14,402 nt of DNA. Source: an uncultured Pedobacter sp. (GTDB lineage Bacteria; Bacteroidota; Bacteroidia; Sphingobacteriales; Sphingobacteriaceae). The stretch spans positions 1 to 14,402 of the forward strand of contig CAMLDJ010000127.1 in NCBI GenBank assembly GCA_946478755.1, given 5' to 3'. Positions 1 through 13,390 of the stretch are shown here, one piece after another. Position 1 is the first letter of the stretch, and each line of letters opens with the position of its first letter. Position numbers and translations under genes: made by a program. The notes under the pieces were generated by a model. The model searched no databases and had not been told where the DNA came from. It worked only from the letters and a program-made list of their open reading frames with translations.

Positions 1-53
1 ACAGGTGGTCAGTTTAAACCGAAACGGGGTGGTCAATTTCAGCGAAATCTCCA
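1..53. mobile_element. Terminal segment of an IS21-type insertion sequence (body outside window)
   Basis: Two direct repeats lie side by side: one beginning GGTGGTCAGTTTAAACCGAA at about 4, and a second beginning GGTGGTCAATTTCAGCGAAA at about 28. Each is a GGTGGTCA block followed by a T/A-rich stretch and CGAAA. Multiple internal terminal repeats of this kind are typical of IS21-family ends, and the segment stops with CA at 52-53, the expected terminal dinucleotide (family knowledge). The coding frame of the neighbouring oxidase-like gene loses its family resemblance exactly here. The transposase genes would lie left of the window, so the family assignment is an inference from the ends only. 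Confidence 0.5.
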
Positions 54-150
54 CAATATACGGAACGCCGTCATTACTGCATGCAATTCTGCCCGTAATC
101 TGACTGCTCAAAAGGTTTTCGATCTGTCGATCGTTTAGTTCTCCTAACAT
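52..150 (-). pseudogene. Pyridoxamine-5'-phosphate-oxidase-like FMN-binding protein, 5' fragment cut by the IS
   Basis: Reading from an ATG at 148-150 on the minus strand gives 33 codons starting MLGELNDRQIENLL and ending in G-R-I-A-C-S-N-D-G-V-P-Y-I-V. This matches the N-terminus of small split-barrel flavin/PNPOx-like proteins, where an L-x-x-x-Q-I-E helix is followed by a G-R-I strand and D-G-x-P-Y-I-V, normally continuing P-V-x-Y-x-Y. These proteins usually run to about 150 residues. Here the resemblance ends at V33, where the IS-like terminal repeats start, and the frame merely stays open into the IS. The gene lies 62 bp downstream of the uspA gene at 213-1049 and probably shared its transcript. 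Full-length relatives bind FMN or haem and are common beside Usp genes; this copy cannot make the complete fold. Confidence 0.6.
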
Positions 151-212
151 CGTGTTTTGACTTTCTAGGTAAATAACATCTTCTCAATAAGGTTTTCAGT
201 ATACAGCCAACA

Positions 213-1049
213 TTATTCATGTTTGGCAAAAACCAATAAAGGCACCTTTGCATAGAATGAATACTGTTCTGCATTGGAGGGAAACAGGAGTTTGTCAAAT
301 CCAGAGCGGTCGTGATGAGAGAAAAGTGCAAGAATGGAGTTATGCCCTTTGTTTATGGTCTGATGGATATCTGCTATTACCGACCTTTCTATGTTGCGTT
401 TAACCTGGATGAATGTTATTGGATAACTATATTTTTCTCTCATCCTTAACTCAAGCTCTTCAGGGTTGCTCATGCCTTCAAACGGTAGACTCATATACAT
501 CATCTGGATTTCTGCACCAAGGGGAGATGCAAAATCAACCAAATGTGGAAGCTCACGCTCAATATTCTGAAGGTCTGTTGCATAGATGATATTTTTTATC
601 TTCCTGTGGCGGTATTTACTGGGCACTACGATCACCGGGATTTTGGAACTGGCCAATAGTCTGCTGGTATGGGTTCCGAAAAGTTTTTTTACCATGCCTG
701 CTCCGCGGGTAGCAATCAGGATATACTCGAATTTCTCTGCCTGGGCATAATCAATTAAGGCATCAACCACCTCCGTTGAATTAAGCACCACAGATTTGAA
801 CCTGAAAGGTTCGAGATCGATGGAACGGCAGATTGCAGAAACAAAGGCGCTGAGTTCTCCGGTGAGCTTATCCATGCTCTTTTTTAAAAACTTGCTGTAA
901 GCCTCCTGTGTCCAGCTAAAAGGTTTGGGTATATGATTTACCTGCACCACACTTAAGGCACAGCCTTTAAGTTTGGCCAACCGCAGTGCCATGCGTACAG
1001 CTGATTTTGAATTATCAGATAAATCGGTGGTTACCATAATTTTTTTCAT
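213..1049 (-). CDS. Two-domain universal stress protein (UspA family)
   Basis: 278 residues, two Usp folds in tandem. Domain 1 (about 1-145) opens MKKIMVTTDLSDNS, the usual first strand plus T-D-x-S loop, and ends I-P-V-I-V-V-P. Domain 2 (about 150-278) restarts at I-K-N-I-I-Y-A-T-D and ends V-P-L-L-V-F. The nucleotide loop of domain 1 (T-R-G-A-G-M-V-K-K-L-F-G-T) resembles G-x2-G-x9-G-S/T but is one residue short, and domain 2 has only a remnant (F-S-H-H-D-R-S-G), so ATP binding is uncertain. There is no signal peptide, so it should act in the cytoplasm as a stress-survival or signalling protein of unknown partner. It is divergent from hsp20; a CRP/FNR-like box lies 92 bp upstream. The IS-cut oxidase gene follows it. 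Confidence 0.9.
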   Translation of the reverse strand: MKKIMVTTDLSDNSKSAVRMALRLAKLKGCALSVVQVNHIPKPFSWTQEAYSKFLKKSMDKLTGELSAFVSAICRSIDLEPFRFKSVVLNSTEVVDALIDYAQAEKFEYILIATRGAGMVKKLFGTHTSRLLASSKIPVIVVPSKYRHRKIKNIIYATDLQNIERELPHLVDFASPLGAEIQMMYMSLPFEGMSNPEELELRMREKYSYPITFIQVKRNIERSVIADIHQTINKGHNSILALFSHHDRSGFDKLLFPSNAEQYSFYAKVPLLVFAKHE

Positions 1050-1089
1050 CTTTTTCCCCTGGTTTTTAACGCAGCTTTTTTCTCTTCTC

Positions 1090-1097
1090 TAAAGCTA
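1090..1097 (-). promoter_or_regulatory. Candidate -7 element of uspA (213-1049)
   Basis: The minus strand reads TAGCTTTA, one base from the Bacteroidota consensus TAnnTTTG, 40 bp upstream of the uspA ATG. No TTG is found at the usual -33 spacing. The box at 1141-1154 is centred about 50.5 bp upstream of the first T. This is a pattern match on a degenerate element, so confidence is low. Confidence 0.3.
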
Positions 1098-1140
1098 TCC
1101 CAGATCACTATCAATTTCAGTAGTTTATCCCTATATTTTT

Positions 1141-1154
1141 ATGATTTTTATCAC
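1141..1154. promoter_or_regulatory. CRP/FNR-like box 1 (upstream of uspA)
   Basis: ATGATttttATCAC: two TGAT half-sites in inverted orientation separated by four bases. This geometry is shared by FNR sites (TTGAT-N4-ATCAA) and CRP sites (TGTGAT-N4-ATCACA). It is centred about 98 bp before the uspA start codon. The sequence directly beyond it, ATCACCTCTGGCAA, recurs next to box 8 with a short insertion. Confidence 0.5.
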
Positions 1155-1316
1155 CTCTGGCAATGATCTTGATCTGAAGGCTTAAAAGAGATGATGTTTT
1201 GCAGTAGATAAGATAATGGGTTTTTCATCGGATTATAGGATGGGCATCCTTTTAATTGCCGTTGTTGAAAAATGCCCAGGCAGCATAATAACCGGTGAGC
1301 AAACTCATAGCAGATA

Positions 1317-1330
1317 ATGACGGGTATCAA
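1317..1330. promoter_or_regulatory. CRP/FNR-like box 2 (upstream of hsp20)
   Basis: ATGACgggtATCAA, half-sites TGAC and ATCA in the same four-base-spaced inverted geometry as the other boxes. Its centre is about 50 bp from the hsp20 ATG and 29.5 bp from a TAACTTTA -7-like element. Allowing about a dozen bases to the start site, this is close to the -41.5 position typical of activators that overlap the -35 region. Confidence 0.5.
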
Positions 1331-1352
1331 TTAAACCCTGTTTAAGACAGGT

Positions 1353-1360
1353 TAACTTTA
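1353..1360 (+). promoter_or_regulatory. Candidate -7 element of hsp20
   Basis: TAACTTTA differs from TAnnTTTG only in the last base and lies 12 bp before the start codon. No TTG stands at the usual -33 spacing, which would fit a promoter needing an activator at box 2. It implies a very short leader, so an alternative promoter further upstream remains possible. Confidence 0.3.
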
Positions 1361-1372
1361 TAAAAAAAAGTT

Positions 1373-1780
1373 ATGTCAGTTACAGAAAATTTAAACAAAA
1401 AAGAGATAAGCTCCATGGTACAGGATTTTTGGGATCCTGAATTCTTTGATGAGCCTAATCAGCCAAAGAAGGCCGTAAATGTTATAGAAAGGGATACCAA
1501 ATTCAAAATTGAGGTGCTCGCGCCCGGGTTTCGAAAAAAAGATTTCTCTGTAAATGTTGAAAACGGAGTGCTCAATATCCTTGCCGAGCATGAAACGGAC
1601 AATGAGGAAAATTATTTGAGAAAAGAATTCTCACGCGCTTCGTTCTGCGGGGCGTTCAGCCTTCCTGAAAATGTTTCTCCAGAACATATAAGCGCCAAAT
1701 ACAGGGATGGTATTCTCTCGTTGACACTTAGAAAGACTGGTAAGCTCTCTTCGGAAAAAAAGCAGGTGAAGATTTCCTGA
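1373..1780 (+). CDS. Small heat shock protein, Hsp20/alpha-crystallin family
   Basis: 135 residues. The alpha-crystallin domain spans about residues 33-120: V-N-V-I-E-R-D, F-K-I-E-V-L-A-P-G-F-R-K-K-D-F, V-E-N-G-V-L-N-I, E-E-N-Y-L-R-K-E-F, F-S-L-P-E-N-V and Y-R-D-G-I-L-S-L-T-L are all in family order. A short N-terminal arm precedes it, and the C-terminal tail ends Q-V-K-I-S, a likely version of the I-x-I/V anchoring motif. Such proteins form oligomers and hold unfolding proteins in the cytoplasm without using ATP. The length is normal for bacterial class A members. The gene is divergent from uspA with its own CRP/FNR-like box, and is followed by a stem-loop before the sigma factor gene. Confidence 0.95.
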   Translation: MSVTENLNKKEISSMVQDFWDPEFFDEPNQPKKAVNVIERDTKFKIEVLAPGFRKKDFSVNVENGVLNILAEHETDNEENYLRKEFSRASFCGAFSLPENVSPEHISAKYRDGILSLTLRKTGKLSSEKKQVKIS

Positions 1781-1794
1781 ACAGACGATGAATT

Positions 1795-1837
1795 TAAGCC
1801 GGGTTTTAGGATAGGGTAATCCCTTGACGCCGGCTTA
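1795..1837 (+). terminator. Stem-loop after hsp20, probable terminator
   Basis: TAAGCCGG at 1795-1802 pairs perfectly with CCGGCTTA at 1830-1837. Inside it, AGGG and CCCT can form a second stem around TAAT. It begins 14 bases after the hsp20 stop. The bases that follow (TATTTAATC) are A/T-rich but not a clean T-run, so it could instead be an mRNA-stabilising or attenuating hairpin before the sigma factor gene. Confidence 0.45.
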
Positions 1838-1865
1838 TATTTAATCATTCACATCATTGAAGCGC

Positions 1866-1879
1866 ATGAGTGAAATCAT
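1866..1879. promoter_or_regulatory. Near-match CRP/FNR-like box upstream of the sigma factor gene
   Basis: ATGAGtgaaATCAT has the geometry of the other boxes, with one mismatch (TGAG in place of TGAT/C). It is centred about 54 bp before the ATG of the sigma factor gene and 28.5 bp before TGATTTTG at 1901-1908, which is one base from TAnnTTTG. This spacing is close to that of box 2, which is the only reason to list it. Confidence 0.3.
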
Positions 1880-1925
1880 CGAGGAAACAAATTGTTTTTT
1901 TGATTTTGGCATTAAAATGTAAAAC

Positions 1926-2444
1926 ATGGAAAAGCCGATTAATTCTTTTACCGAACGTAAATCCTTTGAAGAACTGCTGCTGGCAGAAGTCAAAATCTTA
2001 AAAAGTATGGCCAGTCATTTTGTCAATGAGAAAGACGAAATGGAGGATCTGGTTCAGGATACCCTGCTCAAGGCATTGCGTTTCTATGAGAAGTTTAGTA
2101 TGGACACCGATATTCGCAAATGGCTGTATACCATCATGAGGAACACCTTTATTAACAGGGTCAACAGAACTTCAAGAGTGATGGAACACCATACGCAGAT
2201 TAAAATAGCCTCCAGAAATAGCTGTTCGGTAAGCACTGTCTTCTCAAAATTGATCTCCGATGATGTTCATCGGGTGATCAACAGTTTTCCTTATCCCATC
2301 AGGCAGGCGATAACGATGTATAATGAAGGTTATAAATACCGTGAAATTTCCCAGGCAACTGCCCAGCCCATTGGAACGGTAAAGACCAGGATCAGAACCG
2401 CACGCCTGGTTCTTGGAAAGAAATTTTCCCCCACCGCCCATTGA
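1926..2444 (+). CDS. ECF-type RNA polymerase sigma factor
   Basis: 172 residues with the two-domain layout of extracytoplasmic-function sigma factors. Region 2 spans about 30-85 with D-L-V-Q-D-T-L-L-K-A and a W-L-Y-T-I-M-R-N-T-F-I-N segment that binds core enzyme and melts the -10 region. Region 4 is about 115-165 with the helix-turn-helix Y-K-Y-R-E-I-S-Q-A-T-A-Q-P-I-G-T-V-K-T-R-I-R-T-A-R for the -35 element. No region 3 is present, as expected. It would direct polymerase to a set of stress promoters. There is no anti-sigma gene next to it: hsp20 lies upstream on the same strand and a decayed BON gene downstream. Control by transcription or by a distant anti-sigma is therefore more likely. 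Confidence 0.92.
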   Translation: MEKPINSFTERKSFEELLLAEVKILKSMASHFVNEKDEMEDLVQDTLLKALRFYEKFSMDTDIRKWLYTIMRNTFINRVNRTSRVMEHHTQIKIASRNSCSVSTVFSKLISDDVHRVINSFPYPIRQAITMYNEGYKYREISQATAQPIGTVKTRIRTARLVLGKKFSPTAH

Positions 2445-2487
2445 ATTTGTAGACCCTCGGATTTTGATTTCCTGTCCTTTCATCTCC

Positions 2488-2501
2488 CTGATGAGTATCA
2501 T
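2488..2501. promoter_or_regulatory. CRP/FNR-like box 3 (upstream of the BON remnant)
   Basis: CTGATgagtATCAT, perfectly inverted TGAT/ATCA half-sites with a four-base gap, centred about 97 bp before the BON start codon. This distance resembles that between box 1 and the uspA gene. The gene it would control is now broken, so the site may be a relic. Confidence 0.42.
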
Positions 2502-2591
2502 CCGCTTCACTGAGCAGGGTTCTTGAAGGCTTGGGATGTAATTGCGCTCTTTGGTTATTCAAACTAAATAGTACACTTTATATTAAAAGTT

Positions 2592-2785
2592 ATGAAAACA
2601 GACAATTAGATTCAAAAAGATGTTCTCGGTGAACTCAAGTGAGAACATCTGTTAATTCAGCCGAAATTGGTGTTTCGGTGAAAGATGGTATCGTGACATT
2701 ATCAGGGGAGGTAGATTGCTATTCTAAAAAACTTGCCGCAGCAAAAAGGATTTCCGGTGTTAAGGCAATAGCTGAAGATATTTAG
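2592..2785 (+). pseudogene. BON-domain protein, decayed
   Basis: The ATG at 2592 starts MKTDN, then TAG at 2607-2609, then I-Q-K-D-V-L-G-E-L-K, then TGA at 2640-2642 where relatives carry a tryptophan codon (TGG). A one-base loss follows at about 2646, where GAA-CA-TCT replaces GAA-CCA-TCT. From there frame +2 continues T-S-V-N-S-A-E-I-G-V-S-V-K-D-G-I-V-T-L-S-G-E-V-D to I-S-G-V-K-A-I-A-E-D-I-stop, the signature of a BON domain (G-I-V-T-L-S-G-x-V, then V-x-G-V-x-x-I). Between K-K-L-A-A and the I-S-G-V segment about three residues seem missing, and the tail that normally follows is gone. Intact relatives are small soluble or periplasmic osmotic-stress proteins, often with two or three BON repeats. 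The gene is convergent with the response regulator gene. Confidence 0.8.
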
Positions 2786-2799
2786 GCCGGTTTGGCCTA
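2783..2799. terminator. Short stem-loop between convergent BON remnant and response regulator
   Basis: TAGGCC at 2783-2788 pairs with GGCCTA at 2794-2799 around a five-base loop; the left arm includes the BON stop codon. It sits between two convergent genes, where a shared terminator is expected. No clear T-run follows on either strand, so termination is only probable. Confidence 0.35.
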
Positions 2800-2820
2800 G
2801 ATTTATCGTGGAACCGAAGA

Positions 2821-3879
2821 TCAGTTGTGCATGTTTCTTAATTTATTGATCTGTTCTATATGGATGACACTATCGGTAATGCGGATGAGCCGTTCATCCT
2901 TGAACTCGCCAAGCATTCTGATCATGGACTCTTTGGCAACCCCTGCAATAGCGGCCAGATTTTCCCTTGTCAGGTCAATTTCAAAGGTTTGCTGCTGTTG
3001 AGGATTGTATTTTTCGTAAAGGGTGACGAGTGTATCTGCAACCTTTTTGCGGAGGGAGTTATATGCCGTAGCCAGTAAGTGTTCTTCACGTTCAATCAGA
3101 TTTTTTGCAAGAACGGAAATGAATTTTTTCATCACCTGTGGGTTACTGCCCATCAGTTGCTCAAACTCCGCACGGGGAATCACAGCAAGCTCGGTATCTT
3201 CTAAAGCCTCCGCAGATTCGCGGTAATTTCTGCCTTCAAGCAAAGGCAGATATCCAAAAAAATCGCCTTGGTTATAAAGCCCCATGATGAGTTCTTTTCC
3301 TTCCTGGTTTCGTTTGTAAGTCTTGACTTTTCCTTTGCTCAGGTAAAATAACTTGGAAGGGAGGTTTCCTTCAGTATAAATAATCTGTTTTTTCTTGTAC
3401 TGGTTCTGGCTGCGGTTTTCTTTGAGTAAATCAAGATGGTCTTTTCCATCGTTAAGCATGATAAGCCTGTCCATGCCGTTTATCCCCGGGGCAATTTCTT
3501 CCTTTAGGGAAGCCGCTTTGCGCAACCGCCCGTCTATGGCATTGATTACATCGGTCCCGTCGAAAGGTTTTATGATATAATCATCTGCGCCCATTTCCAT
3601 GCCCTTTCTCACCTCAGTACGTTCAGACTTGGCTGTAAGGAAGATAAAGGGGATGTTGGCAGTTGCCTGGTTTTTTTGAAGCATAAGCAGCACACCATAG
3701 CCATCCAGAACGGGCATCATGATATCGCAAAGTACCAGGTCCGGCCGTTGCTGAAGGGCGATTTCTACACCTTGCTTTCCGTTTTCGGCCTGATCGACTT
3801 TATAGTTGGCCAGCTCAAGGATCTCTGAAAGGTTCTCCCTGATGTCCCGGTTGTCCTCGATAACTAAAATCCTTTTCAT
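2821..3879 (-). CDS. Response regulator with CRP/FNR-type output (receiver, cNMP-binding fold, winged helix)
   Basis: 352 residues. The receiver domain (about 1-120) has the acidic pair E8-D9, phospho-acceptor D52 in L-V-L-C-D-I-M-M-P, T82 and K104 in I-I-K-P-F. A linker leads to a CRP-like beta-barrel (about 150-240), a dimer helix (about 245-275) and a C-terminal HTH_Crp (about 300-345), whose recognition helix carries A-K-E-S-M-I-R (K316, E317, R321). In CRP and FNR the matching Glu and Arg read the TGA half-site. The barrel lacks the cAMP contacts (G-Y-L-P in place of G-E, and E-S-A in place of R-S/T-A), so it is unlikely to bind cAMP. Phosphorylation therefore probably replaces ligand control, driving dimerisation on DNA. 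The start codon overlaps the kinase stop by 4 bp (ATGA), implying coupled translation. It is the best candidate to bind the TGAY-N4-RTCA boxes here. Confidence 0.93.
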   Translation of the reverse strand: MKRILVIEDNRDIRENLSEILELANYKVDQAENGKQGVEIALQQRPDLVLCDIMMPVLDGYGVLLMLQKNQATANIPFIFLTAKSERTEVRKGMEMGADDYIIKPFDGTDVINAIDGRLRKAASLKEEIAPGINGMDRLIMLNDGKDHLDLLKENRSQNQYKKKQIIYTEGNLPSKLFYLSKGKVKTYKRNQEGKELIMGLYNQGDFFGYLPLLEGRNYRESAEALEDTELAVIPRAEFEQLMGSNPQVMKKFISVLAKNLIEREEHLLATAYNSLRKKVADTLVTLYEKYNPQQQQTFEIDLTRENLAAIAGVAKESMIRMLGEFKDERLIRITDSVIHIEQINKLRNMHN

Positions 3880-5546
3880 AATTCAGTCTGTTTTGTTTTT
3901 ACAAATTCAATAGTAAATTCCGTTCCCGATCCAAGTTCACTTTTACAGGAAATTTTTCCGCCCATTAACCCCACATATCTGGAGACAATATGCAGGCCCA
4001 GTCCTGTTCCCTGGATATTGTTGGCATTGCTTGCACGAAAAAACCTTTCAAAGAGATGATGCATATCCTGCGTAGGAATGCCCAATCCTTTGTCACTGAT
4101 TTTTATCGTTACCTGATTTTGGTCAACTGAACTGCATATATGAATGTGGCTGTTTTCAGGGGAAAACTTGATGGCATTGGAAAGCAGATTGATGATAATG
4201 TGCTTGAGCATGACCTGATCTAAATACACGCGGGTTTCTCCCTGATGAGAAAACTGGATAATATGACCTTTCTTTTTCAGTGTTTCTATTTCTGTAATAA
4301 CGTTTTTGATATGATCCGTTAGCTCAAAAGTGCTGTAATGCGGTTCGGCTTTGTTTTCCTCAATTTTCTCAAGGGATAGGAAATCGTTTAATATATCGGT
4401 TAAAGACTGTACTGTAGCGGCTATCCGGTTCACGTGGCTTTGCCGCTTTTCCTGCTGATTTTCTGTGGTATATTTTGATATCAGATAGGCAGAAGAGAGT
4501 ATAGTACTCAAAGGGGTCCGGAATTCATGGGAGGCCATTGAGACAAACCTCGACTTGAACTCACTCATCTCTCTTTCCTTTTTCAGGCTCTGGAGAATTT
4601 TTTCCTCAACTTTCTTCCGTTCAGAAATGTTCATCGCAATCCCCAGATAGCCTTCGGTATCCCCGGTTGGTGTATGCATCGCTGTAATGGTAAGTGATGC
4701 CGGAAAACGGCTTCCGTCCTTTCTCAGGCATTCAATTTCCCGTTCATTCGCCAATCCGAGATCAGTTTTTATTTTTAGTGCCTCAAAGTTGGCAGCAACA
4801 GTTAACTTAAGTGATTTTGTAAGTTCGACCGCGCTTTGCTTAAGTGTTTCAGCAGGATGAAAAACTGAGGGGCTAAGCTTATCGATGATTTCTTCGGCAA
4901 CATAGCCCAGCTCTCGTTCGGCAGCAGGATTGAACATCTTTATCGTTCCGCCCGAATCGGTAACATATAGGATAACCTCTGCATGACCCCAAATACTCCG
5001 CAAAAAAGTGTTTGCCCTATTAAGCTCTACATCCTTTAGCTCGGTTTCGGTGATAAGCTCTGCCAATTGTTTTACCGTGCTGGTCAGTGAGCGTGTCCTG
5101 CTTAAAACCTTGGCCTCCAGCTGCTCGTTTAAGACTTTAAGCTCCAGCTCCGCTTTTTTTCTTGCCGAGATATCACTTATAAAACCGATGACAAATTTTC
5201 CCTGATCTGTTTGATAACTGCTCAGGCTAACCTCTACAGGAAATTCCGTTCCATCTTTTCTAAGTCCAAAAAGATCAAGTCCCAGCCCCATCGGCCGCGA
5301 CCGCGGGTGTTTGATATAGCCATTAACATGGTGCTGGTGTTTATCTGCAAACCTGCTTGGAATAAGATCTTCAATCGGCTTTCCGCTAAGTTCCAACGGG
5401 CGATAACCAAATTGTTTTTCTAAAAATGGATTGGTTATCACAATTTGGCCCCTGTCATCAGCAACAATAATACCCATAGAGGCATTATCAAACAAGGGAT
5501 CGAAACCAATTCCCGTGGTTTTGTTCATCTTTTGGTTGAAAGACAT
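3876..5546 (-). CDS. Soluble PAS-PAS sensor histidine kinase
   Basis: 556 residues. PAS 1 is at about 15-128 (D-N-A-S-M-G-I-I-V-A-D-D through G-F-I-S-D-I-S-A-R-K), followed by a heptad-like coiled coil at about 128-178. PAS 2 is at about 180-310 (closing G-I-A-M-N-I-S-E-R-K). HisKA at about 325-395 has S-H-E-F-R-T-P-L with the phosphorylated H340, and HATPase_c at about 405-548 has the N-box (N-L-L-S-N-A-I-K-F-S), D-K-G-L-G-I-P and G-T-G-L-G-L-H-I-V. All catalytic motifs are intact. There is no membrane segment or signal peptide, so it senses a cytoplasmic cue through PAS; no haem- or flavin-binding residue can be assigned with confidence, so the ligand is unknown. It should phosphorylate D52 of the CRP-type regulator encoded immediately downstream with a 4 bp overlap. 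Two CRP/FNR-like boxes lie 135-170 bp upstream, suggesting autoregulation. Confidence 0.94.
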   Translation of the reverse strand: MSFNQKMNKTTGIGFDPLFDNASMGIIVADDRGQIVITNPFLEKQFGYRPLELSGKPIEDLIPSRFADKHQHHVNGYIKHPRSRPMGLGLDLFGLRKDGTEFPVEVSLSSYQTDQGKFVIGFISDISARKKAELELKVLNEQLEAKVLSRTRSLTSTVKQLAELITETELKDVELNRANTFLRSIWGHAEVILYVTDSGGTIKMFNPAAERELGYVAEEIIDKLSPSVFHPAETLKQSAVELTKSLKLTVAANFEALKIKTDLGLANEREIECLRKDGSRFPASLTITAMHTPTGDTEGYLGIAMNISERKKVEEKILQSLKKEREMSEFKSRFVSMASHEFRTPLSTILSSAYLISKYTTENQQEKRQSHVNRIAATVQSLTDILNDFLSLEKIEENKAEPHYSTFELTDHIKNVITEIETLKKKGHIIQFSHQGETRVYLDQVMLKHIIINLLSNAIKFSPENSHIHICSSVDQNQVTIKISDKGLGIPTQDMHHLFERFFRASNANNIQGTGLGLHIVSRYVGLMGGKISCKSELGSGTEFTIEFVKTKQTEL

Positions 5547-5680
5547 ATTAGCCTACTTCATAAATATACAACAATTAATCATCGGTATTTTCCTGAGGTG
5601 TACATTGCCCGCTCATGAGCAGCTTTTATTCAACTGAGGAGTACAGATAGCTAAAATTGTATCTTTTTTTACACTTATTA

Positions 5681-5694
5681 ATGACCGGTGTCAT
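5681..5694. promoter_or_regulatory. CRP/FNR-like box 4 (upstream of the kinase gene)
   Basis: ATGACcggtGTCAT, a perfect palindrome over all fourteen bases and the most symmetric copy in the window. It lies exactly 22 bp, two helical turns, from box 5, so two dimers would sit on the same face of the DNA. It is upstream of the operon that encodes the presumed binding protein. Confidence 0.55.
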
Positions 5695-5702
5695 ATGGGG
5701 TA

Positions 5703-5716
5703 ATGATGGTAGTCAC
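5703..5716. promoter_or_regulatory. CRP/FNR-like box 5 (upstream of the kinase gene)
   Basis: ATGATggtaGTCAC, with TGAT and GTCA half-sites at four-base spacing. It is the second of a phased pair with box 4. Only the kinase-regulator operon reads away from this region. Confidence 0.5.
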
Positions 5717-5871
5717 ATTATTTTTAAAAGGAATTTGATTTAATCAGACTACTACTAGCTCTTTGTTTGTTTTTCCCGGCACGGATGAAGCAATGATTTT
5801 ATCGGCTTCGAAATTGCAAGGGCTGGATCAAGCTAGCGGGTTTAAAACTGTTCCGATACTCCTGCACCTAG

Positions 5872-6732
5872 CTACTGCTGGCATGCTGGCTTCCAAAGCT
5901 CGGGTAAGACCAGTATGGCTCCGTGGTGCTTTTTAATAATTGCACGGCAGTGAGAAGAATGGAAAATCTCATGAAGCAACCCATGGGTCCTGTTGACAAG
6001 GAGTAAAAGATTATCTTTCGATGGAGGAAACATCCGGTTGATTTCACTGGCGATGGCATTGGATTTTAGAAGATGAAAGGGGATATCGCTGAATTTATCT
6101 TTCTGCAAAACGCGCTGAAAAGATGTTATACGGTCCTCTTCATCAAAATCAGCAACTAGCCCGCGGCTTTCCATTACGTAACTGAGTGAAAGGCTGGCCT
6201 TGAACGCCTTGCGGATCTTCTCAATGGATTCAAGCAGAGCGATGTCCTTTTCATTGAGGTCGGAAGCGAAGTTTATCCTGCACTTATCTGGAAGGAATTC
6301 ACTGGAAGATAATATAAGCAGCGGGCAATCGCTGTTTCGCATGGCAATATGGATATGGTTTGCAAAAAGAAAATTACTTTTATGCCTTTTATGCCTGCCC
6401 ATCACCGCCAGTATTAGTTTTTCGCCCTGCTGAATGTCGTAAAGTACCTCAGATATCGGGCCTATGGTATTTATTGTGTGAATTCTGATGTACTGTTGAC
6501 GAGTTTTCATTTGTTTTAAAAGCCTTTCCTTTTCTTTTTCAAGCGAAATTTTAGCCTTCTCCTCCATTTCCTTATAGTCCATTTTTAAAGGTTCAGCGAG
6601 AATAATCTGGGGCAGGTGATAGCTGTGCAGCAGCAGGAGCTCAGCCCCGAAATGTTCAGCAATGCCTAGAGCGGTTTGAGCTGCATTTTTAGCGGCCCTG
6701 GAAAAATCGGTCATGACCAGTATTGTTTTCAT
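5872..6732 (-). CDS. Two-domain universal stress protein (UspA family), degenerate nucleotide site
   Basis: 286 residues. Domain 1 (about 1-145) opens MKTILVMTDFSRAAKNAAQ, includes a charged, probably helical segment at about 50-80 (M-E-E-K-A-K-I-S-L-E-K-E-K-E-R), and ends C-P-L-L-I-L. Domain 2 (about 150-280) starts C-R-I-N-F-A-S-D-L and ends G-A-I-L-V-L-P. The ATP loop is lost: where relatives have G-x2-G-x9-G-S/T, domain 1 reads M-G-R-H-K-R-H-K-S-N-F-L-F-A-N-H. It is therefore likely a non-ATP-binding, protein-interaction type of Usp. It is divergent from the uspA at 6907, with a CRP/FNR-like box 35 bp before its start and a TAGCTTAG -7-like element between. The kinase gene follows on the same strand after 325 bp, probably as a separate unit. 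Confidence 0.88.
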   Translation of the reverse strand: MKTILVMTDFSRAAKNAAQTALGIAEHFGAELLLLHSYHLPQIILAEPLKMDYKEMEEKAKISLEKEKERLLKQMKTRQQYIRIHTINTIGPISEVLYDIQQGEKLILAVMGRHKRHKSNFLFANHIHIAMRNSDCPLLILSSSEFLPDKCRINFASDLNEKDIALLESIEKIRKAFKASLSLSYVMESRGLVADFDEEDRITSFQRVLQKDKFSDIPFHLLKSNAIASEINRMFPPSKDNLLLLVNRTHGLLHEIFHSSHCRAIIKKHHGAILVLPELWKPACQQ

Positions 6733-6736
6733 CTTG

Positions 6737-6744
6737 CTAAGCTA
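6737..6744 (-). promoter_or_regulatory. Candidate -7 element of uspA (5872-6732)
   Basis: The minus strand reads TAGCTTAG, which matches TAnnTTTG except for one T. It lies 29.5 bp from the centre of box 6, exactly the spacing seen between box 2 and the hsp20 -7 candidate. It is very close to the start codon, so transcription would be nearly leaderless. Confidence 0.28.
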
Positions 6745-6766
6745 GGGGGCGAAATTTGATTTATTG

Positions 6767-6780
6767 ATGATAATGGTCAT
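6767..6780. promoter_or_regulatory. CRP/FNR-like box 6 (between two divergent uspA genes)
   Basis: ATGATaatgGTCAT, with outer bases also inverted. It is centred 41 bp from the start codon of the leftward uspA and 133 bp from that of the rightward one, so it most likely serves the leftward gene. Confidence 0.5.
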
Positions 6781-6827
6781 CTCCGGTAATAATCCTGTCC
6801 ATTGACTTTTGTTGATTTATTTTCAGT

Positions 6828-6845
6828 ATCATCGGTACCGCTGAT
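6828..6845. promoter_or_regulatory. Palindrome upstream of the rightward uspA
   Basis: ATCATCGGTACCGCTGAT reads the same on both strands at 16 of 18 positions, with a perfect CGGTACCG core flanked by ATCA and TGAT. It is centred about 70 bp before the ATG at 6907. The half-sites point outward compared with the CRP/FNR-like boxes, so it may be a site for a different regulator. Confidence 0.35.
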
Positions 6846-6906
6846 TTCCCTCACCTGCTTCCAGCCTTGGTTTTATCAGATTTATATCTTCAAAATAGAT
6901 CTGGTT

Positions 6907-7818
6907 ATGAGGTGTAAAATATTGATTGCGACAGATTTTTCCAGGGCAGCAGCTTCTGCTGCAGATTATGCCCTACGGATGGGCTGCTCATGCGGAATGA
7001 ACCTGGCCATAGTACACATCTACTCCGTCGCTTTACCAATGGTAGCAGACGGGACTATGATTTCGCAGGACAGCTTATATGACCTTGCCGAAAAGGATTC
7101 ATTGGGGAGATTGTCTGCACTCGCGGCAAAACTTAACCTGGAGGCAAACCAGTTGTGCGCTGATGGCTTTAAGCCGTCCATCGAGGTTTTCTCAACAATC
7201 GGTGTTCCTGCGGCCGGGATAAAATCCTTTTTCAACCAGAAGGATATGGGTATGATTGTTATGGGCATCAAGCCTGAGGAAAGATATTTGGGAACTTTGC
7301 CCGGAAGTACGATCCGTAAGCTGATCAAATGGGCCAGTGTGCCTGTGCTGCTTGTTCCCATGGACTTTCCCCCTGTACCACTCCGGCAGATTGTTTTCGC
7401 TACTGACTTTGGGGATAGTGAAATCACAGCGCTCAATTTTTTAGCTGAAATTGCATCTGCTTATCATTCAGATCTGCTTATTTTTCATAACAGGCTATCC
7501 GCTGAGAAGGGACGAAAGTTTTTGCAGAAAGAGAAAAAATTTCTGGACAAGGTAGCCCAGACAATTGATTACCCTAAGATTTTTTACAGGCACAAACAAA
7601 AGGATACCCTTGAGGAGGCGCTGGAGGTTTTGGAAAAAAACAGTGAAGCAGATATGCTGGCAATGGTACATAAAAAGCACAGTATGATAGGAGAGCTCTT
7701 CGGAGGAGATAAAACCTTGAGAATGATTTCCAGAACCAGGCTACCCCTAATGATCTTTCCCCAGGGTTTCGCTACTAGCCTCTATCCCGCAAGGTTAGAC
7801 GAAAAGTTGCATAATTAA
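6907..7818 (+). CDS. Two-domain universal stress protein (UspA family)
   Basis: 303 residues from the ATG at 6907. The frame is open back to a TTG at 6802, but those 35 residues are hydrophobic and unlike the family, whereas MRCKILIATDFSRAA is the normal first strand and T-D-F-S loop. Domain 1 (about 1-150) ends V-P-V-L-L-V-P; domain 2 restarts R-Q-I-V-F-A-T-D-F-G-D-S and ends L-P-L-M-I-F-P. The phosphate loop of domain 1 (M-G-I-K-P-E-E-R-Y-L-G-T-L-P-G-S-T-I) keeps the final G-S-T but not the first G-x2-G, so nucleotide binding is doubtful. Domain 2 has M-V-H-K-K-H-S-M-I-G-E-L-F-G, the H-K-x-H variant also seen in the uspA at 9915. The last 20 or so residues extend beyond the fold. It is divergent from the uspA at 5872-6732 and convergent with the GH130 gene. 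Confidence 0.88.
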   Translation: MRCKILIATDFSRAAASAADYALRMGCSCGMNLAIVHIYSVALPMVADGTMISQDSLYDLAEKDSLGRLSALAAKLNLEANQLCADGFKPSIEVFSTIGVPAAGIKSFFNQKDMGMIVMGIKPEERYLGTLPGSTIRKLIKWASVPVLLVPMDFPPVPLRQIVFATDFGDSEITALNFLAEIASAYHSDLLIFHNRLSAEKGRKFLQKEKKFLDKVAQTIDYPKIFYRHKQKDTLEEALEVLEKNSEADMLAMVHKKHSMIGELFGGDKTLRMISRTRLPLMIFPQGFATSLYPARLDEKLHN

Positions 7819-7913
7819 ACTTTCCGGGAATTTTAATCAATTACCGGCAAATGCTTTCTTGTCGGCTGATCAGGGATGACAGAGTTTTTTTGCAGTGATA
7901 GGTTGCGAGGTAT

Positions 7914-7953
7914 CGTCTTTGCGAGAAGGCTTTTTCAGCAGACGAAGCAATCT
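7914..7953. repeat. Degenerate CGTC-TTGCGAG...GACGAAGCAATCT repeat
   Basis: The segment starts CGTCTTTGCGAGAAGGC and ends GACGAAGCAATCT. This resembles the widespread intergenic repeat of the form CGTCATTGCGAGG...ACGAAGCAATC found in many Bacteroidota and other genomes (recalled pattern, not searched). Its place in a convergent spacer is typical. Copy number in this genome cannot be seen from the window. Confidence 0.45.
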
Positions 7954-7982
7954 TTATAGCACGATCTTTTAATAGCAGGAAA

Positions 7983-8038
7983 GATGCTGAAATAAATTTA
8001 CTGCGTAGCTTTCCGCTGCGCTACAGGTCAGCATGACG
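7983..8038. repeat. Palindromic repeat with an inserted second hairpin
   Basis: GATGCTGA at 7983-7990 pairs with TCAGCATG at 8028-8035 (seven of eight). Between the arms lies AATAAATTT and an inner imperfect palindrome, CTGCGTAGC...GCGCTACAG. The short form GATGCTGAAATAAATTCAGCATGACG is, from memory, a common dispersed palindrome in Sphingobacteriales genomes. This copy looks like one with extra sequence in its loop. Confidence 0.45.
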
Positions 8039-8126
8039 ATCGCTTTAGGAAAAGAGGTTACAAACACAAATCTATCTTAACAAAGATGTGTGTCCACACG
8101 ATAGGATTTTTATCCAGAGGCTCAAG

Positions 8127-8140
8127 ATGACAATCATCAT
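8127..8140. promoter_or_regulatory. CRP/FNR-like box 7 (convergent spacer, doubtful)
   Basis: ATGACaatcATCAT fits the motif but lies 6 bp beyond the end of the GH130 gene, with no promoter reading away from it. It may be a chance match or a relic; listed for completeness of the motif count. Confidence 0.2.
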
Positions 8141-8146
8141 ACTCCT

Positions 8147-9178
8147 TTATAGATCACGGAAACGCCTGAGCTCCACGCAAAGACCTTTGAGGTCAATCGA
8201 GGCACAGGCGATGCAGGAGTCTGCAGCCCCGTAATAAATGTAGAGTCTTCCCGAAAATACCGCTGCGCCTGAAGGGAAACAGACATCGTTGACCTCGCCA
8301 TCACGTTCCCAGTTCTTTTCAGGATAAAACAGCGGATAGGGCAGACGGGAGATTTCCCGCTCGGGGTTGTCAAGCTCGAGCAGTGCAGCGCAGGCGCTAT
8401 ATCGATAGCCATCGGGCGTATCACATACCCCATGATAGATCACCAGCCAGCCCCATTCGGTCTCGATCGGTGGGCATCCGCCACCAATATAACTTACCTC
8501 GTGAGCGAACTTCGGACGCAGCAGGATATGCGTTTGAAAGTGTTTCAGGTTATCTTCCCAAAAAGGCTTATCAAAATCCGACAGATTATCCCCACTGGCC
8601 AGCTGTATATCCGGTTTTATCCGATGCATGAGATATAGTTTGCCATTTATCCTTCTTGGAAAGAAAACCAGGTCTTTATCCCAGACCAGAAGAGGCTTGT
8701 TGTCCTTGGCAAGGGTCTTGTCATGAGCATACCTGGCATATTTTGGATTCAATACCCCTGATTGTTCCGCAAGCATTCTGAACGCTGGAAAAACAATTTT
8801 GGGGACAATAACGCCATAACGCTCAAAAGTCTCCAGGTCTGAAGATACCGCAACTGCACCAAGTGCATTCATTCCGTCAAAAGCGGTATAACTTAAAAGA
8901 TATGTGCCATCAATTTTTACCAGCCTGGGATCCTCTATTCCCGCACTTTCTTCTTCGCCTAAAGGAATTAGAAGTGGTGTTTTATCTCTTTGGATGATTT
9001 CAAGCGGGCCTTTAAATATACATTTGCCAATCGTTGAGATGCCGGATGCATTAACGGCCCGGTACAGCATCACGATGTTTTCTCCTTCCTGAAGAACTGC
9101 AGGGTTAAGTACCGCCCTGGATTCAAAGGGCTTATCTGTAGGGTAGAGCAGAACCCCTTCCTTTTGGATTTCGATCAT
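8147..9178 (-). CDS. GH130-family glycoside phosphorylase (beta-mannoside type)
   Basis: 343 residues, a five-bladed beta-propeller family without signal peptide. Recognised by the N-terminal strand set R-A-V-L-N-P-A-V (21-28), M-L-Y-R-A-V (37-42), the catalytic-loop signature G-I-E-D-P-R-L-V (80-87, D83 the presumed general acid), L-S-Y-T-A-F-D-G, H-R-I-K-P-D-I-Q, G-G-G-C-P-P-I-E-T and I-Y-Y-G-A-A-D. GH130 enzymes cleave beta-mannosidic bonds with phosphate, giving mannose-1-phosphate and saving ATP; several act on beta-1,2-mannobiose. The exact substrate and whether it phosphorolyses or hydrolyses cannot be told here. The start codon overlaps the stop of a truncated uspA (ATGA), so translation is probably coupled. 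No transporter or polysaccharide-degradation genes are nearby, which points to turnover of an internal or stress-related mannoside rather than feeding. Confidence 0.9.
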   Translation of the reverse strand: MIEIQKEGVLLYPTDKPFESRAVLNPAVLQEGENIVMLYRAVNASGISTIGKCIFKGPLEIIQRDKTPLLIPLGEEESAGIEDPRLVKIDGTYLLSYTAFDGMNALGAVAVSSDLETFERYGVIVPKIVFPAFRMLAEQSGVLNPKYARYAHDKTLAKDNKPLLVWDKDLVFFPRRINGKLYLMHRIKPDIQLASGDNLSDFDKPFWEDNLKHFQTHILLRPKFAHEVSYIGGGCPPIETEWGWLVIYHGVCDTPDGYRYSACAALLELDNPEREISRLPYPLFYPEKNWERDGEVNDVCFPSGAAVFSGRLYIYYGAADSCIACASIDLKGLCVELRRFRDL

Positions 9179-9621
9179 CGTTTTTCAGATATGGGAATGA
9201 TGACGAGTGGTTTGTTCGAATTCCGCGTCACCTCTTCTGCTACGCTTCCCATCAAAAGATGAGAAAGCCCTTTTCTGCCGTGGGTACCCAAAACAATCAT
9301 GTCTGCATTCCAGGAGCGGGAAAGCTCGATAATGACCGATGCCGGCCTTCCCCGCTCGATAAAAGTACTCACCGGAATGTTGTAGCCAATGAGATAACAC
9401 TGGTTGAGCAGCTCCTTATGCTCATAACGCGGACGGAAGCCTACGCGGAAGAACTTGCCGATAAAAGCAGAGAGCTGGCCGGTAGCCTCAAAAAAGTCCG
9501 CAATCGAATGCTTAAAAGAAGTTATCAGGTTTTTACTCTTTTTTGGTTTATTCATCTCTCTATACAGGCTATAACCATATTCATAAAGATATCCTGGCGG
9601 GGATGCCCGCCCAATGAGCAC
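9175..9621 (-). CDS. Single-domain UspA, N-terminally truncated
   Basis: The longest frame gives 148 residues from a GTG at 9621, with an ATG at 9555 as the alternative. The C-terminal half is a normal Usp: G-R-P-A-S-V-I-I-E-L, A-D-M-I-V-L and an intact nucleotide loop G-T-H-G-R-K-G-L-S-H-L-L-M-G-S-V (G-x2-G-x9-G-S), ending K-P-L-V-I-I-P. The N-terminus is not: the first strand, the T-D-x-S/D-x-S loop and helix 1 (about 35 residues) are absent, and the frame opens inside what looks like strand 2 (L-P-L-I-V-L-I then S-P-P-G-Y-L-Y-E-Y-G-Y). The upstream frame stops at 9638. Either the start was lost by a deletion, or this is a remnant kept because the overlapping GH130 gene depends on its translation. 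The middle stretch (F-I-G-K-F-F-R-V-G-F-R-P-R-Y-E-H) is also unlike the family. Confidence 0.65.
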   Translation of the reverse strand: MLIGRASPPGYLYEYGYSLYREMNKPKKSKNLITSFKHSIADFFEATGQLSAFIGKFFRVGFRPRYEHKELLNQCYLIGYNIPVSTFIERGRPASVIIELSRSWNADMIVLGTHGRKGLSHLLMGSVAEEVTRNSNKPLVIIPISEKR

Positions 9622-9914
9622 AATCAGGGGGAGTACTGATCAAAATCACCTCTAATGGCTCTGGCAACAATATTTTTAATTTTCTCGTCTTCCTAAAAAA
9701 GTAATCTGTGTGATAAAGGGATCAGCGCTTATTTTTTCTTTCCTGGATGTCTTAAATCATTGTTTTGACCAATCCGGATCATCTTCCTGCATGCTCTTCA
9801 GGTATTAACTTTGGAAAAGCCCTGCAAGATAGTCAATCAAGCAATGGAAAATAACTTAACCATCGCAGCTGAACTTAAATGCGGTTTTCACCGAAGCTAA
9901 AACAATAAGAAAAA
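9622..9914. other. Divergent region between truncated uspA and the uspA at 9915
   Basis: No gene is supported in these 293 bases. Box 8 lies at the left edge. Near 9747-9760 there is ATGTCttaaATCAT, one mismatch from the box motif, about 160 bp before the rightward gene. The leader of the rightward gene is A-rich (AACAATAAGAAAAA before the ATG), the usual Bacteroidota start context. No convincing TAnnTTTG pair was found. Confidence 0.45.
9636..9649. promoter_or_regulatory. CRP/FNR-like box 8 (abutting the truncated uspA)
   Basis: CTGATcaaaATCAC, inverted TGAT half-sites with four-base spacing. It is only 14 bp before the GTG at 9621, far closer than box 1 is to its intact uspA, which fits loss of the promoter and gene start by deletion. 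Like box 1 it is followed by CTCT and GGCAA. Confidence 0.45.
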
Positions 9915-10787
9915 ATGAAAAAAATCCTTGTTCCGACCGATTTTTCGGCTCCCGCTGAAAATGCGGCAAAATATGCCATTTCCATGGCGAAGGTGTTAGA
10001 TGCACGGGTAACTATCGTCAATGCTTTTGTCCTTCCCGTACCTGTTTCTGAAAACGGTTTATGGCCGGTTATAGATACTGCTGATCTTGAAGGGAATATC
10101 GGAGGTGAACTCGACCTCATGGTCAAAAAACTACTCGATGACTCCTGCTCAGATGACCCGGGCAGCTGTCCTACGATAGATTACCGTTGCGCTGAAGGCC
10201 CGGTAATTTCTGTCATAAAGCAGATTTCCGGACAGATTGATACTGACCTTATCTTAATGGGGCTGTCTGGAGCGGGCGGACTTGTGAACTTCATCTTGGG
10301 CAGTAACAGTATGGCCATCATAGAAAAAGGTGATCGCCCCGTGCTTCTTATTCCTTTCGGTGCCCGATACCACGGGATAAAGAAAATAGTCTATGCCGGC
10401 TCACTCACGCCGCAAGATATAAAGCCATTGGAATACCTCTGTAAGCTTGCATTATGGTTTAAAGCTGAAGTCTGCGTGCTGCATATCATTGAAATGAGAA
10501 AGGACCTCAACACTGGTATACAATCTATCGGTGAGGATTTTATCGACCAGATAAGAATACTTACAGGTTACAATAAAATCTGCTATGAACCGGTCTGGAA
10601 CAGCAATATCGATCAGGGGCTCGAATGGATAGCCGAACAGGAAGATATTGACATTGTCTCGATGTTTCATAGGAAGCATAATCTACTCGATAAAATATTC
10701 AGCGGAAGCAGAACCAAACGTTTTGCCAGATATACCACCACACCCTTATTGGTATTTCCTCCGGGTTATATTGAAAAAGAAGCGTGA
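9915..10787 (+). CDS. Two-domain universal stress protein (UspA family) with intact ATP loop
   Basis: 290 residues. Domain 1 (about 1-148) opens MKKILVPTDFSAPAENAAKYA and carries a full nucleotide-binding loop: G116, G119 and G129-S130, spaced G-x2-G-x9-G-S (G-L-S-G-A-G-G-L-V-N-F-I-L-G-S). It ends R-P-V-L-L-I-P. Domain 2 (about 153-290) begins I-K-K-I-V-Y-A-G-S and ends T-P-L-L-V-F-P; it lacks the loop and has the F-H-R-K-H-N-L-L-D-K-I-F variant. Domain 1 is therefore the likely ATP-binding, signalling half, and this is the only intact two-domain Usp here with a perfect loop. The ATG follows an A-rich leader. A strong terminator ends the unit 79 bp after the stop, so the gene is probably monocistronic. 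Confidence 0.92.
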   Translation: MKKILVPTDFSAPAENAAKYAISMAKVLDARVTIVNAFVLPVPVSENGLWPVIDTADLEGNIGGELDLMVKKLLDDSCSDDPGSCPTIDYRCAEGPVISVIKQISGQIDTDLILMGLSGAGGLVNFILGSNSMAIIEKGDRPVLLIPFGARYHGIKKIVYAGSLTPQDIKPLEYLCKLALWFKAEVCVLHIIEMRKDLNTGIQSIGEDFIDQIRILTGYNKICYEPVWNSNIDQGLEWIAEQEDIDIVSMFHRKHNLLDKIFSGSRTKRFARYTTTPLLVFPPGYIEKEA

Positions 10788-10865
10788 TAAAATTAAAATC
10801 AACCTTTTCTTTCTGCAGCTTAAAATATTCTTTGAAAACCTGATAGGGATTATTCATAATAACAA

Positions 10866-10908
10866 CGGCAGACAGTTGATGATTTCTACAACTGCCTGCC
10901 GCTTTTTT
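10866..10908 (+). terminator. Rho-independent terminator of uspA (9915-10787)
   Basis: CGGCAGACAGTTG at 10866-10878 pairs with CAACTGCCTGCCG at 10889-10901, thirteen positions with a single mismatch, around a ten-base loop. A run of six T follows at 10903-10908. It lies between the converging uspA and phosphoketolase genes; the T-run favours the plus strand, while the minus-strand side lacks one. Confidence 0.88.
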
Positions 10909-10915
10909 ATAAGTG

Positions 10916-13324: not shown

Positions 13325-13390
13325 TTAGCAGTATTTACTTAGCATGCTGCTTATTTAGCTAGTTTACTGGTCTTTTTTTTAGCCAGCGCG

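Follow-up and report, generated by a model that had tools for sequence, protein, structure and literature searches.

The regulation of genes at low oxygen has been charted well in Proteobacteria, and in Mycobacterium tuberculosis the regulator DosR is a LuxR-type response regulator. The DosR regulon is described as hypoxia-induced, with ten universal stress protein (Usp) genes among 48, and the lxa locus of Burkholderia cenocepacia as holding six universal stress proteins, a heat-shock protein and a BON protein (PMC6127331). The authors of the lxa work suggest that a FixK homologue, which is under FixLJ in B. dolosa, may be central to the oxygen response (PMC6127331, PMC9104464). Here, we analyse a stretch of 14,402 nucleotides from an uncultured Pedobacter sp. 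of the phylum Bacteroidota (GenBank assembly GCA_946478755.1, contig CAMLDJ010000127.1, positions 1 to 14,402; hereafter the window), in which the palindrome TGAY-N4-RTCA recurs upstream of stress genes and a receiver is joined to a CRP-type DNA-binding part in one protein (RR-CRP), encoded next to a PAS-domain histidine kinase. Judging from the sequence, the palindromes are operators for activators of the CRP/FNR superfamily, read here most likely by RR-CRP under the kinase of its own operon.

By Pfam, the island holds five Usp, Hsp20, an extracytoplasmic function (ECF)-type sigma factor, a GH130 protein, a PAS-PAS histidine kinase and RR-CRP; a phosphoketolase and a beta-CASP-like protein come after these genes. 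Several Usp together with Hsp20 (and BON) mark islands of the lxa or DosR type, and the window has five Usp and hsp20 by Pfam and a BON remnant recognised by eye. It differs from lxa in its phylum, in its broken BON gene and in adding the phosphoketolase, GH130, the ECF sigma factor and its own kinase and RR-CRP, and from DosR in that the proposed reader is of the CRP type. We read the window as a Bacteroidota counterpart of the lxa locus, in which a FixJ receiver and a FixK-like activator would lie in one protein. Among the matches listed in a literature search (titles, the beginnings of abstracts and few subscription papers), there was no receiver-CRP regulator, operator or regulon in Bacteroidota, and the novelty of the regulator is put forward provisionally. 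One paper on CRP/FNR proteins places homologues from Flavobacteriales and Saprospiraceae near MalR (PMC8510549).

The window contains nine exact matches to TGAY-N4-RTCA against 1.04 expected from dinucleotide shuffles, and none of 200 shuffles reached nine. Eight of the nine fall within 2430 bp of non-coding DNA (by our own gene table), starting at 1142, 1318, 2489, 5682, 5704, 6768, 8128 and 9637 (1-based). An earlier model reading of the letters (the sequence-only reading) had listed eight non-coding sites, all of which exist, with each coordinate 1 too low; it had also placed them upstream of island genes, from which 8128 has to be excepted because it lies between the convergent ends of usp3 (7818) and GH130 (8147) and is upstream of no gene. 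The enrichment is specific to the half-site spacing, with eight non-coding matches for N4 versus 0-2 for each spacing of N0-N3 and N5-N12. When one mismatch is allowed, 37 matches are found in the window against 19.96 expected. A one-mismatch copy announced before the sigma factor gene is indeed present at 1867, with a second one 22 bp upstream at 1845, and the same distance separates 5682/5704, 1142/1164 and 9615/9637. The suggestion of xfp as a target did not hold, the 66-bp gap ahead of the gene containing no exact site and the gene beyond running off the window.

The motif recurs around the RR-CRP genes of other Bacteroidota. We assembled 30 loci, namely L001-L010, used as RR-CRP loci from a contig scan that kept 80 loci, mostly of other receiver proteins (L011, at 39% identity and 5 kb, was excluded), and L111-L130, twenty stretches of 14-19 kb chosen by best RR-CRP E-value. 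With genes called from our own open reading frame picks rather than annotation, these loci have 90 intergenic matches in 52.5 kb (1.71/kb) versus 50 coding matches in 505.7 kb (0.099/kb), about 17-fold, so that coding and non-coding density, compared around the RR-CRP genes of relatives, bears out the sequence-only reading. Other half-site spacings give 1-12 intergenic matches versus 90 for N4. Nineteen further RR-CRP loci (L214-L232), from genomes mainly picked for many exact pairs and biased upward in density and pairing, hold 70 intergenic matches in 34.8 kb (2.01/kb) versus 45 coding matches in 311 kb (0.145/kb). Twenty RR-CRP neighbourhoods taken from genomes contain 94 matches where each genome's own density predicts 31.6 (p 2e-19). 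At least one intergenic site is present in 45 of 49 RR-CRP loci, and a gene starts within 320 bp in the right direction for 145 of 153 intergenic sites. An outer T, as in TTGA, occurs in 15% of 98 symmetrised sites and the longer TTGAY-N4-RTCAA in 12 of 223 sites.

Two regularities that were absent from the sequence-only reading, the pairing of sites at 22 bp and their distance to the -7 box, describe a common promoter layout. A second site (at least seven of eight positions) lies at 22 bp in 52 counts in the 30 loci, versus a maximum of 7 at any other distance, and in 58 versus a maximum of 3 in the 19 further loci; these counts are neighbour relations in which an exact-exact pair is counted twice. 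The Bacteroidota -7 element is described as TAnnTTTG, and Flavobacterium johnsoniae as a case in which the -33 element was not identifiable (PMC7366714). Across 196 sequences downstream of sites, TAnnTTTG starts at offset 24 in 22 and at offset 46 in 23, with at most 2 at other offsets; this set includes 29 loci (L158-L186) chosen for holding an exact tandem pair, which inflates pairing and not the box offset. The 84 sequences of the 19 further loci, in which the offset was not selected on, give 10 at offset 24 and 8 at offset 46, with at most 1 elsewhere (L227 and L232 overlap the 3-kb loci L162 and L175 of the 196-sequence set). A box TAnnTTT[GA] at either offset accompanies the motif in 86 of 276 sequences versus 3 of 91 for eight controls summed (spacings N2, N3 and N5-N8; words AGTY-N4-RACT and CATY-N4-RATG). 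Since 46 equals 24 plus 22, the two peaks correspond to the near and far members of a pair. The near site is centred 29.5 bp ahead of the box's first base, that is, at about -41 as inferred from the box, and about -41 is where CRP and FNR sit at class II promoters. The layout would be that of a class II activator with an optional second dimer upstream.

Intergenic TGA-N6-TCA palindromes that precede genes at a fixed distance from the promoter (box offsets 24 and 46) are what is expected of operators of the CRP/FNR superfamily, and we regard the motif as almost certainly an activator operator of this type. The CRP/FNR-like geometry before stress genes, already proposed from the letters, is supported by the spacing-specific enrichment and by the relatives' loci. 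Upstream of the ccoNO cluster in four related genomes (L113-L116), conservation extends to three tandem sites and the -7 box while the surrounding bases differ; the small open reading frame that follows looks by eye like ccoS.

The window itself was scanned with a score combining site, -7 box and upstream partner. Ten places score at least 13, compared with an average of 0.08 over 60 first-order Markov sequences, a scoring devised after viewing related loci and partly the window, which is no independent test of the layout. The ten places cover usp4, hsp20, the kinase operon, usp1, usp2, usp3 and the sigma gene, three of them being the same pairs on the opposite strand. The sites are as follows:

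1142 to 1153, minus strand: operator upstream of usp1; exact, with a degenerate partner at 1164-1175 (7/8, 22 bp) and a poor box at offset 24
1318 to 1329, plus strand: operator upstream of hsp20; exact, with -7 box TAACTTTA at offset 24 and a 6/8 partner at 1296; score 15.5
1845 to 1878, plus strand: degenerate tandem pair 1845/1867 before the ECF sigma gene; 7/8 each, 22 bp apart; score 13.25, box 4/6
2489 to 2500, plus strand: palindrome upstream of the BON remnant; exact, lacking a good -7 box where one is expected
4114 to 4125, unstranded: palindrome inside the kinase gene; the ninth exact match, probably chance
5682 to 5693, minus strand: kinase promoter operator, proximal member of the 22-bp pair; exact; score 15.0, box 4/6
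5704 to 5715, minus strand: kinase promoter operator, distal; exact, 22 bp from 5682
6768 to 6779, unstranded: operator between the divergent usp2 and usp3; exact, with TAGCTTAG (5/6) at offset 24 toward usp2; scores 13.75 for usp2 and 12.0 for usp3
6842 to 6853, plus strand: one-mismatch operator upstream of usp3, with a 6/8 partner at 6820; score 13.5
8128 to 8139, unstranded: palindrome between convergent genes; exact, probably chance
9615 to 9626, minus strand: one-mismatch proximal operator of usp4, with -7 box TATCTTTA at offset 24; score 16.0, the best of the window
9637 to 9648, minus strand: distal operator of the usp4-GH130 operon; exact

At the usp1 promoter, TAGCTTTA begins 48 bp ahead of the start codon, and upstream of usp5 there is a weak degenerate pair at 9748/9770 (score 11.25), with TAACTTTG 109 bp ahead of the start. 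The palindrome at 2489 scores 11.75 on the minus strand (box 3/6), its plus strand not being among the 22 matches listed; the missing good box might fit the decayed promoter of a decayed BON gene.

The candidate reader and its kinase are encoded in one operon, where their genes overlap by four bases:

2821 to 3879, minus strand: RR-CRP, composed of a receiver, a cNMP-binding fold and a CRP-type helix-turn-helix (Pfam Response_reg 1.2e-28, cNMP_binding 1.6e-22, HTH_Crp_2 1.2e-12)
3876 to 5546, minus strand: PAS-PAS histidine kinase (Pfam)

Residues invariant in 20 aligned RR-CRP sequences are D52, T82 and K104 in the receiver, which is intact by this measure, and K316, E317 and R321 in the recognition helix. 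In CRP and FNR, E and R at these places of the helix contact the TGA half-site, and their conservation in RR-CRP fits the TGA motif. The cNMP-binding fold, the HTH_Crp domain and the helix E and R place the protein in the CRP/FNR superfamily. Its best CRP-type structure match by sequence is 2gau, a Crp/Fnr protein of Porphyromonas gingivalis (3e-30), and a structure search with its AlphaFold model gave CRP-family proteins as top fold matches. The model (mean predicted local distance difference test score 77, predicted template modelling score 0.43) supports the CRP fold and is too uncertain for the domain arrangement. Because its sole cysteine, Cys51, lies in the receiver, RR-CRP is predicted to carry no FNR-type iron-sulfur (Fe-S) cluster. 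This sets it apart from FNR and ANR with their 4Fe-4S cysteines, with which it shares the operator core and, as far as three FNR-only Bacteroidota loci go, the -7 offset. Among 248 genomes of one order, 161 encode RR-CRP (E <= 1e-60), as do 117 of 395 genomes of the class (E <= 1e-100); Chitinophaga filiformis is one cultured relative that has it. It is probably a reader of the operators in this island.

The kinase, whose nearest named homologue is that of Pedobacter sp. G11 (92% identical), matches FixL heme-PAS structures with its first PAS domain, PAS1 (best 2cmn, 6e-12). Its His70 stands in what we take to be the column of the heme-binding (proximal) histidine of FixL, and is kept in 120 of 120 homologues among the matches listed and in 24 of 25 kinases adjoining RR-CRP elsewhere. 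Heme on PAS1 is plausible, and we favour, with reservations, oxygen or redox as the signal of the kinase. In five of the 30 loci no kinase adjoins RR-CRP, and in four of these (L001, L119, L123 and L126; not L117) a palindrome stands immediately ahead of RR-CRP.

Genes that have a site no more than 320 bp upstream, 96 in all from the window and the 30 loci, were tallied by Pfam and comprise kinases (11), Usp (7), ccoN/FixO (6), HSP20 (5), receivers (4), baeRF (3), BON (2) and PfkB (2). In the 29 tandem-pair loci, taken from elsewhere in the order and partly from genomes without RR-CRP, the 37 genes next to sites include COX1 (3), ferrochelatase (2), GlutR (2) and one each of FixS, FeoB, POR_N, BON, PfkB and Usp. 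For comparison, 140 site-free genes were sampled from the 186 in the same loci that have an upstream gap but lack a site; 130 of the 140 were in the Pfam tally, and the other ten (six ccoP and one ccoNO among them) were scanned separately and included in the phmmer count. By phmmer, site-bearing and site-free genes contain 6 versus 2 Usp, 5 versus 2 Hsp20, 6 versus 1 ccoNO, 0 versus 8 ccoP and 11 versus 10 kinases, with usp5 of the window and ccoNO of L121 in both sets owing to different definitions of "downstream". Thus ccoNO, hsp20 and Usp are more enriched downstream of sites than kinases; four of the six site-bearing Usp are the window's own. RR-CRP adjoins cbb3 oxidase genes in L113-L116, L121, L124 and L128: ccoNO, ccoP and ccoG in L114 (NCBIfam), ccoP in L113-L116, L124 and L128 and ccoNO in L121 (Pfam).

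The company of the sites was compared across the 248 genomes, which hold 479 exact tandem pairs versus 3 for the reversed pattern. The mean is 2.57 pairs in 145 genomes with RR-CRP only (113 with a pair), 1.95 in 19 genomes with both RR-CRP and an FNR-type protein (12 with a pair) and 0.36 in 42 genomes with neither; RR-CRP only differs from neither at p 7e-11, ignoring genome size and kinship. The borders of the classes are approximate, FNR-type proteins being called at about E <= 2e-48 with the list read by hand; three genomes with a full-length RR-CRP just under threshold were reassigned to the class with RR-CRP, the 31 other RR-CRP negatives being kept as first called. This four-class comparison replaces a presence/absence test (E <= 1e-60) in which a pair was found in 122 of 161 genomes with RR-CRP versus 39 of 87 without (0.47 versus 0.24 pairs per Mb in the first 97 genomes). 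That test was confounded: ten pair-rich supposed negatives comprised three full-length RR-CRP below threshold and seven four-cysteine FNR-type proteins. Counts of the single motif versus the reversed pattern did not separate genomes with and without RR-CRP by eye, and the 22-bp pair was used instead.

A number of observations weigh against RR-CRP as the reader or against oxygen as the signal. The 42 genomes with an FNR-type protein only have a mean of 1.31 pairs, with a pair in 27, above the class with neither protein (p 5e-5, again ignoring genome size and kinship), and nine of the 42 genomes with neither, at the thresholds used, still carry pairs. TAnnTTTG stands at offset 24 in four of seven pair loci from genomes without RR-CRP, three from FNR-only genomes (L168-L170, two of which share the same pair) and one from a genome with neither protein. 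The single motif is below its reversed control in some RR-CRP genomes (134 versus 253 in G025; 134 versus 231 in G031). While ten of 25 kinase-RR-CRP operons of other loci have an exact site within 300 bp upstream, and the window has two, the remaining 15 have none. Kinases are hardly enriched downstream of sites, the Usp enrichment is weak once the window is left out (2-3 of 90 versus 1 of 137 controls), and within the window a full-score box at offset 24 is found only for hsp20 and usp4, the kinase promoter reaching 4/6. In the kinase, PAS1 has a better match in 10jx (5.3e-15), the PAS of another kinase and not of FixL, and the distal Arg220 of FixL, in the numbering we assume for both FixL residues, corresponds to Leu90 and is Arg in only five of 25 neighbour kinases.

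Because FNR-only genomes share the layout, individual sites cannot be attributed to RR-CRP on sequence grounds alone. RR-CRP appears to suffice as company for the sites, and so does an FNR-type protein; the operator code seems to be shared between them. The main reader could accordingly be a separate Fe-S regulator of the FNR type whose gene lies outside the island, with RR-CRP a neighbour acting on the same or other targets. The seven FNR-type proteins read, from genomes without RR-CRP, have four N-terminal cysteines and retain E and R in the recognition helix, which speaks for this view together with the FNR-only pairs and box offset above; we consider it unlikely, as most pairs are in RR-CRP genomes without an FNR-type protein and the sites cluster near RR-CRP genes and stand before some kinase-RR-CRP operons. 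Somewhat easier to entertain, though still doubtful, is that both proteins share the operators as two sensors on one code, like FixK and FnrN of rhizobia, whose sites are described as very similar (PMC4999443). The 19 genomes with both types would allow it, but are not richer in pairs than those with RR-CRP only. Chance palindromes picked by eye deserve a hearing, given a motif defined on the same sites and the probable chance origin of 8128 and 4114. For the site set as a whole this account is refuted by the shuffles, by the enrichment and 22-bp pairing in loci chosen solely for RR-CRP and by the -7 offset in larger sets, and its probability is negligible. A signal other than oxygen (redox, nitric oxide or cell energy), with the oxidase genes as indirect company, is a possibility to be taken seriously if not the expected one. 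The replaced Arg220 and the 10jx match favour it, whereas the relatives' targets (cbb3 oxidase, FixS, ferrochelatase, GlutR, FeoB and pyruvate:ferredoxin oxidoreductase) form a low-oxygen and heme/iron set that counts against it, partly from genomes without RR-CRP.

Two FNR-type genes lie close to exact 22-bp pairs themselves: in G239 (contig 16) a pair stands some 86 bp ahead of the FNR-type match, possibly for autoregulation, and in G172 (contig 11) a pair stands just downstream of the gene. The receiver as the cause of the 22-bp pairing was dropped as unsupported, since FNR-only genomes pair likewise.

With RR-CRP as the preferred reader, the PAS kinase would sense oxygen or redox state, possibly via heme on His70, and phosphorylate D52 of RR-CRP. 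Phospho-RR-CRP dimers would occupy the TGA half-sites and engage RNA polymerase in the manner of a class II activator, a second dimer 22 bp further up strengthening the activation. Low oxygen would then raise usp, hsp20, the sigma factor and the kinase operon and, elsewhere, cbb3 oxidase and heme genes. Such a system would work like FixLJ-FixK in two proteins, without being FixJ or FixK as defined. In common with FixLJ-FixK of rhizobia, Caulobacter and Burkholderia are the FixL-like PAS1 with a histidine in the putative column of the proximal His, a regulator of the CRP type that lacks Fe-S cysteines, TGA-centred palindromes and, in relatives, cbb3 oxidase and heme genes downstream. In contrast, the island joins the receiver and the CRP-type part in one protein, with no separate FixJ/FixK step, and the outer T of TTGA is uncommon. 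FixJ combines a receiver with a LuxR-type helix-turn-helix, whereas RR-CRP has HTH_Crp_2 and Pfam found no LuxR-type domain in it; FixK is a stand-alone protein under FixJ, whereas RR-CRP is fused to its receiver. On balance, we lean slightly towards a condensed FixLJ-FixK of Bacteroidota, in which a FixL-like kinase and a receiver-CRP fusion would drive a low-oxygen regulon from operators placed at a constant distance from promoters that have only a -7 element, where a second dimer could join exactly 22 bp further up. The Fe-S FNR of other lineages would serve the same operators, sensor modules having been exchanged over an unchanged promoter code. The fixed distance from site to box would offer a ready target predictor in Bacteroidota, the spread of RR-CRP through the order could explain regulation in many environmental species, and the interchangeability of two-component and Fe-S inputs on the same promoters becomes testable.

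The other genes of the island are:

213 to 1049, minus strand: usp1 (Pfam Usp 3.2e-21)
1373 to 1780, plus strand: hsp20 (Pfam HSP20 2.1e-20)
1926 to 2444, plus strand: ECF-type sigma factor (Pfam Sigma70_r2 1.4e-13, Sigma70_r4_2 7.2e-8)
5872 to 6732, minus strand: usp2 (Pfam Usp 9.6e-18)
6907 to 7818, plus strand: usp3 (Pfam Usp 1.1e-19 over 6904-7818; ATG at 6907 read from the sequence)
9175 to 9555, minus strand: usp4 (Pfam Usp 2.5e-18 over 9175-9621; predicted start codon)
9915 to 10787, plus strand: usp5 (Pfam)

The BON-domain remnant, seen by eye at 2594-2786, is interrupted by stops and a frame change. At 13391-14402, upstream of the phosphoketolase, a beta-CASP/MBL ribonuclease-like protein runs off the window, with NCBIfam matches below cut-off. 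A viral scan of the window gave no match, and megablast against plasmids gave two short matches, both at the phosphoketolase. A search by way of xfp for orthologues in Sphingobacteriaceae gave a match in 5 of 247 genomes at E <= 1e-250, with a best identity of 70%. At the edge of the window (1-60) there are two diverged repeats (GGTGGTCA...), which presumably resemble an insertion-sequence end.

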